Shown: piece by piece, positions 9,522 through 15,885 of the stretch
How the letters are laid out: the number at the start of each line of letters is the position of its first letter
Numbering within the stretch: position 1 is the first letter of the stretch
Assembly (NCBI GenBank): GCA_002951815.1
Contig: CP019454.1
Location: forward strand, 1,674,001 to 1,738,000
Direction of reading: 5' to 3'
Length of the DNA stretch: 64,000 nucleotides
Source: Sulfobacillus thermotolerans
Lineage (GTDB): Bacteria > Bacillota > Sulfobacillia > Sulfobacillales > Sulfobacillaceae
Notes under the pieces: generated by a model
Told to the model about the DNA's origin: nothing
What the model saw: only the letters and a program-made list of their open reading frames with translations
The model's database searches: none
Translations under genes and position numbers: made by a program

Positions 9522-9585
9522 CGTGGTACAACGCAGCAGTCTGCGCGAAGTAAGCGTTTAATTCTAAGAATAGGAGGGAAAGCCA

Positions 9586-10739: not shown

Positions 10740-11534
10740 CTAAGCAAGCAGGTTGGCATGGCGTGATAAAAAGTCGGCCATAGTACGGCAAGTCATTTGC
10801 GGTTCTTCGATGTGCGGCAGATGACCGACATCATCAATGATGAGCAACTCAGCATCAGCTAAAGCCTTTTCGAGTTGGCGGCCGTACTCGACCGGCACGA
10901 TGATATCGTCACGGCCCCAGAGCAACAATGTGGGCATGTTGACCCGGGTTAAATCGAGGGACGGATCCGAGGCAATGCCGTCATTCCCTAAATATTGCGC
11001 AAAGACATGGCGGCCATGATTTAATTCTTGGGCATCAGACAGTGTTCGGTAGGGCGTCAGTTTACGATATCGGTCGGGATGCTTGACGAGCCCCGACATA
11101 AACTGGTCAGGAGGCAGGGTCAGCGGGTTGACAATGGGGACATCTTTAAGATTCACACCCACGGCATCTAATAACATGAGGGCTCGCACTTGCGTGGGCA
11201 TTTGGGCTGCAACGCCAAGAGCAACTCGTCCACCCATGGAGTTGCCGCCAATGGCGAATCGCTCAATATTCCACACACCCAGCCAGCCTTGGATAGCGAC
11301 GACGATGTCACTCACCCGTTCAATTCCCGGCACTTTTTCAGATTGCCCGAATCCGGGCATATCGGGGGCGATCACGCGGAAATGGGTACTGAGACACTCT
11401 AACTGGTACCACCATGCTTTGCCAGTGCCTCCGCCACCGTGTAGGAGGATAATGGGGAACCCTTGACCGGATTCAAACCAGCTAAACTGCTTGCCACGCC
11501 ATGTGCTATGCTGGCGTATAATGTCTGTGGGAAT
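10740..11534 (-). CDS. Alpha/beta-fold hydrolase, apparently starting at ATT
   Basis: A 264-residue alpha/beta hydrolase. The oxyanion segment LLHGGGGTG, the nucleophile elbow GNSMGG (Ser), the acid in WGRDDIIVP and the His in VGHLPHIEEP make a complete triad, like meta-cleavage-product hydrolases and lipase-type esterases. The first ATG/GTG/TTG in frame (GTG at 11375) lies after the oxyanion loop and would give a broken fold. Upstream, ATT at 11534-11532 follows a perfect AGGAGG by 8 bases, and an in-frame TAG closes the frame just before that. ATT is therefore the most likely start, which is rare. The substrate is unknown. Confidence 0.85.
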   Translation of the reverse strand: MPTDIIRQHSTWRGKQFSWFESGQGFPIILLHGGGGTGKAWWYQLECLSTHFRVIAPDMPGFGQSEKVPGIERVSDIVVAIQGWLGVWNIERFAIGGNSMGGRVALGVAAQMPTQVRALMLLDAVGVNLKDVPIVNPLTLPPDQFMSGLVKHPDRYRKLTPYRTLSDAQELNHGRHVFAQYLGNDGIASDPSLDLTRVNMPTLLLWGRDDIIVPVEYGRQLEKALADAELLIIDDVGHLPHIEEPQMTCRTMADFLSRHANLLA

Positions 11535-11662
11535 GGTTGTCGCCTCCTAATAAGTATGCTGTCGTTATTGTAAACTTGTCGCGGCCGAAGGCCAAGGGAA
11601 GGAAGGACGTTACGAAACAGAAGATGATACGGACGTCGACCGTGCGTAAAGATCAGGAGGCG

Positions 11663-12670
11663 GTGAAGGTCAGCGACGTCGGTGAACGGGCGCTGATCTC
11701 AGTGATACACCGCTTACAAGCGATTGTACCAATGGGCTATTTGGGCATTGGAGATGATGCGGCATATCTTCCGCCATCGGATCTCGGATGGTTAGTAAGT
11801 CAAGATATGCTGGTAGAAGGAGTGCACTTCCGCTGGGATTGGATGACGCCGGAACAGTTGGGAGAAAAAGCGGTAGCGGTCAATATTAGCGATATTGCGG
11901 CAATGGGGGGCGTACCCAAGGCCATTTTAACCAGCATTGCCTTACCAGCGGATACTGAAGTCGAGCGGGTCGAACGGCTCTACCGTGGCATGGCTAAGGC
12001 ATTAGACCGTTATGGGGCCGTGCTGCTGGGAGGAGACACGGTACATTCGCCGAGTGAGATGTCTCTGGACGTGGCGGTGTTTGGACAGCCTAGTGTGACC
12101 GGCCCTATCTTGTTGAATGGTGCAAAGCCCGGAGATCGGCTTTTCGTGACGGGACGACTGGGTGCCGCTCATGCGGGCTATACGTTGTTATCCCATGGCG
12201 TCAGGTGGCCGAGTACTTCGATTCAGCATCGCAGTGTACTCCAAGCGCATTTGGCGCCGGTAGCCCGCGTAGAAGCGGGAAAGCAATTGGGGGCCCTCGC
12301 TCATGCTATGACCGATATATCCGATGGATTGCTGTCGGAAATTCGGACCATGACGCGTTTTGGAGGGATTGGTGTCCAAATTGATGCCGATAAGATGCCT
12401 ATTGACGCGGCGACGCGGTCTGTAGCCAAGGAGTACGGTGAGGATGCGTTGGATTTTGCATTGTACGGTGGTGAGGATTACGAATTATTAGCGGCGATTC
12501 CGCCGTCCCGTGCCCAACAGGCGGAACAACTCTGTTTGCAGTGTGGGGTGCCAATTACCGAGATTGGCGTCGTAACTGATACCTTAGGCATTCGGGTGAT
12601 GCGCGCGGGAGAGGAGATAGCCGTCGATGAAAGAAAATCCTATCATCACTTCACCGTGGACCCGGATTAG
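11663..12670 (+). CDS. thiL: Thiamine-monophosphate kinase
   Basis: An AIR-synthase-fold kinase turning TMP into TPP. LGIGDDAAYL (ATP/Mg site), VSQDMLVEGVHF, NISDIAAMGG, LLGGDTVHS, DISDGLLSE and YGGEDYELL are all family signatures. The 5' end is uncertain: the frame is open from TTG 11537, with ATG 11624, GTG 11642 and GTG 11663 as candidates. Family homology starts just after 11663, where an AGGAGG lies only 2 bases from the GTG; that AGGAGG would be ideally placed (8 bases) for a GTC at 11669. A TATAAT at 11517-11522 may be its -10. The 3' end overlaps tsaE by 44 bp. The pairing of thiL with tsaE, tsaB and rimI is common in Bacillota. Confidence 0.9.
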   Translation: MKVSDVGERALISVIHRLQAIVPMGYLGIGDDAAYLPPSDLGWLVSQDMLVEGVHFRWDWMTPEQLGEKAVAVNISDIAAMGGVPKAILTSIALPADTEVERVERLYRGMAKALDRYGAVLLGGDTVHSPSEMSLDVAVFGQPSVTGPILLNGAKPGDRLFVTGRLGAAHAGYTLLSHGVRWPSTSIQHRSVLQAHLAPVARVEAGKQLGALAHAMTDISDGLLSEIRTMTRFGGIGVQIDADKMPIDAATRSVAKEYGEDALDFALYGGEDYELLAAIPPSRAQQAEQLCLQCGVPITEIGVVTDTLGIRVMRAGEEIAVDERKSYHHFTVDPD

Positions 12671-14801: not shown

Positions 14802-14886
14802 AACAAACCCTCCCTAACAGTCATGGGAGTAGTTTTCCCAGATCGGCCAAAGATATTTCGCGCAACCAAGGAGAGGAGCATAGCCT

Positions 14887-15885
14887 ACGAAAATCCTCGG
14901 AATCGAATCATCTTGTGATGAAACGGCGGCCGCTGTTGTTGAAGATGGCACACGTCTTTTAGCGACCAGTTTGGTATCATCTGCGGCCATTCAGGCCCAA
15001 TACGGAGGCGTGGTGCCGGAAGTGGCGGCCAGGGAGCATGCGATGGCTATTTTGCCAGTCGTCGATTGGGTTTTGAAAGAGGCAGGGTTGGACTTAGCGG
15101 ACATTGATGCGGTGGCGGTGACGCAAGGACCTGGCTTGTTGGGCTCCTTGCTGGTCGGGGTGACTTTTGCCAAAACGTTGGGAGCGAGTTTGCATGTGCC
15201 GGTAATCGGAGTTCATCATCTGGAGGCGCATTTGTATGCTAATGCGCTCATGGCTCCCATTGAGTTTCCCGCCTTGGCGTTGCTTGTCTCTGGGGGGCAT
15301 ACTAGTCTTTTTTACTGGCAAGGCCATCGGGATTTGCGGCTTCTGGGAGAAACGCAAGATGATGCGGCTGGGGAAGCCTTTGATAAAGCGGCACGTATTC
15401 TTCACATGACCTATCCGGGAGGACCGCAAATTGAACGGTTAGCGCGCCAAGCGCGTAAGAAATCGTTCAAGCTACCCGTGGCCGATATGCATGGCCGGTT
15501 GGACTTTAGCTTTAGTGGGGTGAAGACAGCGACCGCCGCGTTATATCGCGAGCATCCTGACGAACCGGAAGAAGTGGCTTATGCATTGCAAGAGGCGGTC
15601 GTGCGCGCATTGGTCCAAACCGTCAAGAGGGCCCTTGCACGTTATCCGGTGGGCGATCTCTATCTTGCGGGTGGAGTGACAGCCAATGAAGCCATTCGCG
15701 AAGCGTTTTTGCATCTTGGCGCGGAGCTGGGCATAAGGATCCACATACCCCCGGTGTCTTACTGCACAGATAATGCGGCGATGGTCGCAAGTTTGGGATA
15801 TTACCAATGGCAAGCGGGAGAGACCATGGGGGCTTTTGAAGGACCCAAAGTGCTTTTTCCGCTCGGACAACGGGAGGGAGAATAA
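14887..15885 (+). CDS. tsaD: tRNA t6A transferase TsaD, no canonical start codon
   Basis: The catalytic subunit of t6A37 synthesis. Reading in frame from 14884 gives KILGIESSCDETAAAVVEDG, the invariant TsaD N-terminus; then come the metal-binding HHLEAH (HxxxH), LVSGGHTSLF, GEAFDKAARIL and SFSGVKTA. Total length is about 332 residues, normal for the family. Yet the first ATG/GTG/TTG is TTG 14971, 28 codons too late. Upstream in frame there is TAG at 14881, with AAGGAG ideally 7 bases before it (as if a TTG had become TAG), and ACG at 14887, with AGGAG 8 bases before it. The coordinates here use ACG. A sequencing error, mutation or non-standard initiation are all possible. Confidence 0.9.
   Translation, partial: TKILGIESSCDETAAAVVEDGTRLLATSLVSSAAIQAQYGGVVPEVAAREHAMAILPVVDWVLKEAGLDLADIDAVAVTQGPGLLGSLLVGVTFAKTLGASLHVPVIGVHHLEAHLYANALMAPIEFPALALLVSGGHTSLFYWQGHRDLRLLGETQDDAAGEAFDKAARILHMTYPGGPQIERLARQARKKSFKLPVADMHGRLDFSFSGVKTATAALYREHPDEPEEVAYALQEAVVRALVQTVKRALARYPVGDLYLAGGVTANEAIREAFLHLGAELGIRIHIPPVSYCTDNAAMVASLGYYQWQAGETMGAFEGPKVLFPLGQREGE

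Follow-up and report, generated by a model that had tools for sequence, protein, structure and literature searches.

The DNA analysed here, referred to as the window, is a 64,000-nucleotide stretch of Sulfobacillus thermotolerans (contig CP019454.1). It carries a gene for an alpha/beta hydrolase on the minus strand (10740–11534), divergent from thiL. The open reading frames downstream of thiL, which we take to be tsaE-, tsaB- and rimI-like, are followed by tsaD. From stop to stop, the hydrolase frame opens at 11546 and runs to 10740. The original prediction for this locus placed the start of the hydrolase at an ATT located eight nucleotides after a perfect AGGAGG, with an in-frame stop directly upstream, and both features were confirmed. 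The Shine-Dalgarno (SD) sequence AGGAGG occupies 11548–11543, the ATT lies at 11534–11532 after an 8-nt spacer, and the TAG that closes the frame upstream (11549–11547) overlaps the SD. The minus strand reads TTAGGAGGCGACAACC-ATT-CCC-ACA-GAC at this point, and the coding sequence counted from the ATT comprises 264 codons (stop included). A −10-like TACAAT (11567–11572, minus strand) is found 32 nt upstream of the ATT, preceded by a −35-like TTGGCC (11595–11590, minus strand); both are consensus matches only. The interval from TACAAT to ATT holds no ATG, GTG, or TTG in any frame in the genome of the window (G000). The first in-frame canonical codon is a GTG at codon 54 (11373–11375, minus strand), 159 nt downstream of the ATT. 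The oxyanion motif HGGGG (codons 32–36, 11427–11441) precedes this and therefore any canonical start, as had been claimed.

Read from the ATT, the protein matches the PF00561 profile with 102.6 bits (cut-off 25.8). HGGGG and the nucleophile elbow GNSMGG (codons 97–102, 11229–11246, minus strand) are invariant in 16/16 aligned proteins, and His238 is common to all 16 aligned family members. The catalytic role of GNSMGG is putative and is read from the family. A structure model of the 264 residues from the ATT has a mean pLDDT of 87.1, and its predicted strands 6–12, 15–22, and 26–31 all precede codon 54. Sequence and fold matches in the PDB include esterases, membrane phospholipase A, PHB depolymerase, and meta-cleavage-product hydrolases. 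With the profile, nucleophile elbow, oxyanion motif, and catalytic His all present, the protein can be assigned to the PF00561 alpha/beta hydrolases, and its activity is predicted on that basis. It has the fold, GNSMGG, HGGGG, and the conserved His in common with hydrolases of this family (esterases, meta-cleavage-product hydrolases) but, among the best 25 of its 33 NCBIfam matches, reaches the curated cut-off of none.

These features bear on the GTG at 11375, which the original prediction had named as the alternative start. As the first canonical codon in the frame, it could begin a shorter protein, in which case the conservation upstream of it would be fortuitous. Such a start would remove the three predicted strands as well as HGGGG, which every aligned protein retains. 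Furthermore, the GTG has no scored SD, and its position is non-canonical in the seven relatives from the genus, except for G002 (GTG at +159). N-terminal conservation and the structure model exclude it as the start, and we regard the short protein as barely credible.

The string AGGAGG-N8-ATT is, by itself, no better than chance and not significant: 0.48 occurrences are expected in the window and one was found, and 37 of 100 shuffles contained at least one. When spacings of 5–9 were allowed, four AGGAGG–ATT pairs were found, against 2.42 expected. (ATT sites following the AGGAGG at 9572 were rejected; they lie one base off a TTG start.) The case for the ATT start therefore rests on conservation. 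A protein search of 61 genomes gave a match in 55, the weaker matches being mostly to other hydrolases. The 30 best loci were read, eight from the genus (G000–G007, Sulfobacillus-type contigs, the window being G000) and 22 from outside it. The ATT, at a spacing of 8 nt from AGGAGG, is found in all eight genus genomes. A relative with a canonical codon at this position would have spoken against the predicted start, and ATG, GTG, or TTG was found there in 0/8. The TACAAT is also kept in 8/8, at 30 nt from the ATT in the seven others versus 32 nt in G000. Near the aligned start, each of the 22 loci from outside the genus carries an in-frame ATG or GTG. In two species of a sister genus (G009 and G018), an ATG falls exactly on the ATT codon, 11 codons before a conserved Trp; in G013, G017, G024, G026, G028, and G030, the ATG is one codon after the aligned ATT. 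The ATG of G009 and G018, being from another genus, does not refute the ATT start; the alignment supports the view that it marks the ATT column as the start.

Fourfold synonymous sites of G000 are 25–37% identical to those of the seven other genus genomes, which suggests that synonymous sites across the genus are near saturation. It is the retention of ATT and its spacing in 8/8 despite this divergence that makes the conservation persuasive. The identity of the ATT alone is moderate evidence, because a single codon is often retained at conserved Ile columns (4/8 in the hydrolase, start included, and 3/7 in tsaD). Among the 121 amino-acid columns of the hydrolase that are conserved in all eight genomes, six use a single codon throughout, and codons 1 (ATT), 5 (ATT), and 6 (ATA) account for three of these. 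Since codons 5 and 6 are identical in 8/8 genomes, translation might instead begin at one of them, or at another nearby in-frame codon, with the first ATT belonging to the leader. However, codons 5 and 6 lie at least 20 nt away from AGGAGG; the 8-nt spacer of the first ATT is in line with those of canonical-start genes, which have their mode at 7–8 nt. The outgroup ATG aligns with the first ATT or one codon later, not with codons 5 or 6, and we consider initiation at these codons improbable.

A canonical start further upstream, either in frame or in another frame combined with frameshifting, is a separate explanation, as is a sequencing error or a pseudogene. G003 does have in-frame GTG/TTG codons 126–183 nt upstream of the ATT, and an out-of-frame ATG occurs in the leader of G005, G006, and G002. 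Yet the other seven genus genomes lack any in-frame canonical codon up to the upstream stop, and the interval between TACAAT and ATT is free of canonical codons in every frame in 5/8. Eight separate assemblies are concordant and have no stop within the hydrolase frame, so explanations of this kind are highly improbable. The locus combines the features of a conserved non-canonical start, namely a conserved N terminus with no usable in-frame ATG, GTG, or TTG, a strong SD, and a codon kept among relatives. As an in silico assignment, initiation of the hydrolase at AUU throughout the genus is very probable.

Codons 5 and 6 (ATT ATA; 11515–11522, minus strand) are constant beyond what the protein needs, and there may be an overlapping DNA or RNA signal at this position. 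Prediction of RNA structure at the hydrolase start gave nothing convincing (two-sided change in 1 of 12 predicted pairs) and offers no explanation for the fixed codons.

A rare start had also been indicated for tsaD, and this held up. Read from the ACG at 14887–14889, tsaD (14887–15885, plus strand) matches TIGR03723 with 388.2 bits (cut-off 296.1), and AAGGAGAGGAG (14868–14878, plus strand) is located 8 nt upstream of the ACG. The start codon is ACG in 8/8 genus genomes. In G000, G002, G003, and G004 there is no in-frame canonical codon between the upstream stop and the ACG; G001, G005, G006, and G007 have an in-frame ATG, GTG, or TTG 33–117 nt upstream, at differing, unconserved places. Nine of the 177 tsaD columns conserved in all eight genomes keep one codon. 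Of the nine conserved Thr columns, one is codon-invariant, and it is the first, ACG; the hydrolase has none among five. The codon-constancy result thus appears sharper for the tsaD ACG than for the hydrolase ATT.

Outside the genus, 22 tsaD loci were collected and 19 remained after G009, G019, and G020 (incomplete, misread) were left out. A canonical codon is present at or near the start in 17 of the 19, and the sister genera have ATG or GTG. G040 has a GTG only 16 codons upstream. A wider sample of the class (121 genomes, 30 loci read, ten incomplete ones dropped) gave an ATG, GTG, or TTG within 15 codons upstream to three downstream in 20/20 readable loci. In the genomes sampled, the predicted ACG start is thus a trait of the genus of the window. 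G035 (L055) has ATC at the place expected for ATG, with no canonical codon near it in frame, and tsaD may have acquired a rare start independently there. To our knowledge, ATT is very rare as a start codon and ACG is rarer still. A literature search, judged by titles and the openings of abstracts, returned no ACG start on a bacterial chromosome. The fixed ACG of tsaD, a core tRNA-modification gene, is the more surprising part of these results, if true.

The initiation machinery itself looks ordinary. The anticodon of the initiator tRNA is CAT in 8/8 genus genomes (among the matches listed), which led us to reject an altered initiator tRNA. The 3′ end of the 16S rRNA is GGATCACCTCCTTTCT in G000, G003, and G004, and an altered anti-SD was rejected for these three; the 16S search gave no match in the remaining five. 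IF3 is ordinary in alignment, as judged by eye. The SD of the hydrolase is good, not unusually strong, since among 193 genes that have a canonical start and a scored SD, 91 likewise show at least six SD-matching bases. In the mechanism we propose, AGGAGG would pair with this ordinary anti-SD and so place the AUU, 8 nt away, in the P site. The CAU initiator tRNA would pair with the first two positions of AUU, the mismatch at the third base would be tolerated, and the protein would begin with fMet. The tsaD ACG would present the same situation with a mismatch at the middle base. IF3 rejects near-cognate starts, so translation of the hydrolase should be weak and should track IF3 activity, an expectation founded on the precedents of infC, Streptomyces sigR, and Staphylococcus aureus cvfC1 and ccpN. 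We see about an even chance that low expression or sensitivity to IF3 is part of the explanation, and any benefit to the cell or regulatory role of the rare starts would be putative.

The statement in the original prediction that ATT starts are known mainly for infC proved too narrow, as AUU, AUA, and GTC starts have been published for pcnB, cvfC1, ccpN, and sigR. Like the hydrolase, infC (which encodes IF3 and starts with AUU, AUC, or AUA) has a near-cognate AUN behind a strong SD, but it encodes a translation factor that is subject to an autoregulatory loop, whereas no link between the hydrolase and IF3 is known. Streptomyces sigR is described (PMC5472188) as having a GTC start behind AGGAGGTG, repressed by IF3, proven by mutation, and present as GTC in 32 of 34 species; the paper reports that evidence for such a start is lacking in other actinobacterial genera. 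As described there, sigR resembles the hydrolase in its genus-wide non-canonical start behind a good SD. It differs in that sigR is a sigma factor with a mutation-proven, IF3-repressed GTC, and the hydrolase is an enzyme with a predicted ATT start. In S. aureus, the starts of cvfC1 (AUU) and ccpN (AUA) were shown by ribosome profiling and reporters, and strong SDs are said to aid these weak starts (PMC13009471). On this account they are conserved, non-canonical, and of low efficiency, and their start and SD traits resemble those of the hydrolase. The cvfC1 product is a putative zinc-finger small protein and ccpN encodes a repressor, so neither is an enzyme, unlike the hydrolase. A study cited in that paper concerns Escherichia coli pcnB, a chromosomal gene whose translation is reportedly limited by its AUU; pcnB shares the AUU start, but its enzyme is unrelated to the hydrolase. 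ATT starts in E. coli ribE are reported from N-terminomics (PMC13245402). Judged from the alignments, the genus-wide AUU start appears to be real, and the hydrolase would join the known genes with conserved near-cognate starts.

Rare starts elsewhere were sought in partial surveys, and cases were retained after reading by eye. The first survey compared G000 1534001–2058000 with stretches of G003, G004, and G001 (295 genes, 228 well matched), and the second took in a further 400 kb of G000 (81 genes, of which 21 were well matched). A reverse survey covered 145+96+28 = 269 G003 genes, largely the same genes as in the G000 surveys. Of the seven genus genomes read for infC, five have ATC as its start and the other two ATT. 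crcB (PF02537; crcB/fluC) has CTG in 7/8 genus genomes and TTG at the same column in G005, and the CTG is preceded by an SD-like GGAG (L134:17386–17736 in G003; L375 in G000). Upstream of this column there is also an ATG at eight codons in G003, and an in-frame TTG at 15 and 12 codons in G000 and G007, respectively. cbiX (PF01903; G000 C1 1757874, L343 around 1501) has an ACG, spaced 8 nt from AGGAGG, that is confined to G000; the start is ATG or GTG/TTG in the five others of the genus that were read, with no match in G001 and fragments only in G007. A spore germination permease (PF03845; L354 and L355 near 1501, match strand) has a candidate ACG in G003 and G004 and an ATG in G000, G002, and G005. 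The ACG of cbiX and that of the permease are less conserved than the starts of the hydrolase, tsaD, crcB, and infC.

The suggestion that rare starts are used more often in this genome fits these partial surveys (hydrolase, tsaD, infC, crcB, cbiX), although any excess over other bacteria is conjectural. According to PMC5622118, 61,358 ancestral AUG starts in 36 genome triplets gave two changes to CUG and one to AUU, figures that derive from annotated starts and are a rough yardstick only for the genus survey. With the tsaD ACG and the crcB CTG alongside the hydrolase ATT, the sequences hint that near-cognate starts are retained in this genus in larger number than expected. It is possible, though doubtful, that AUU, AUC, ACG, and CUG make up a lasting repertoire of near-cognate starts among unrelated genes of the genus, either sensed through IF3 or reflecting relaxed start selection, with ACG as a regular chromosomal start.

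The ATT and ACG could also be real starts that were fixed by drift, or for a low constant level of product, with no regulation linked to IF3. No regulatory RNA structure stood out (the single two-sided change noted above), the rare-start genes share no obvious function, and some rare starts are species-specific, as is that of cbiX in G000. Against this, the third positions have been kept across saturated divergence though a canonical start is one mutation away. We give fixation of this kind slightly less than an even chance. Whatever fixed them, the hydrolase ATT and the tsaD ACG, kept genus-wide, provide a natural setting in which to test if weak starts are under selection and if they tie these genes to IF3.

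Since the starts allowed by gene finders are mainly ATG, GTG, and TTG, genes with near-cognate starts are cut short or mis-annotated. Canonical-only annotation would leave the hydrolase without its oxyanion motif and TsaD without its first 28 residues. This bacterial group seems to depend on start codons that are passed over in gene prediction.

Other candidates from the surveys were set aside. At G000 1631727 and 2021547, the conserved sequence upstream (GGGTGGAACCG, GGTGGTACCGCG) is non-coding in appearance and resembles T-box leaders. For the ORF at 1755864, presumably cobM-like, an ATG downstream is the likelier start. ORF 594632 (ACG versus ATG in G003) was dropped, being transposase-like by eye and having a TTG three codons on. 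thiL (window 11678–11690, plus strand) was not counted as a rare-start gene; at the place of its GTG, G003 and G004 have ATG and G001 has GTG. In G000, this GTG is only 2 nt after an AGGAGG and a GTC is 8 nt after it, and a GTC start of thiL, similar to that of sigR, stays conceivable.
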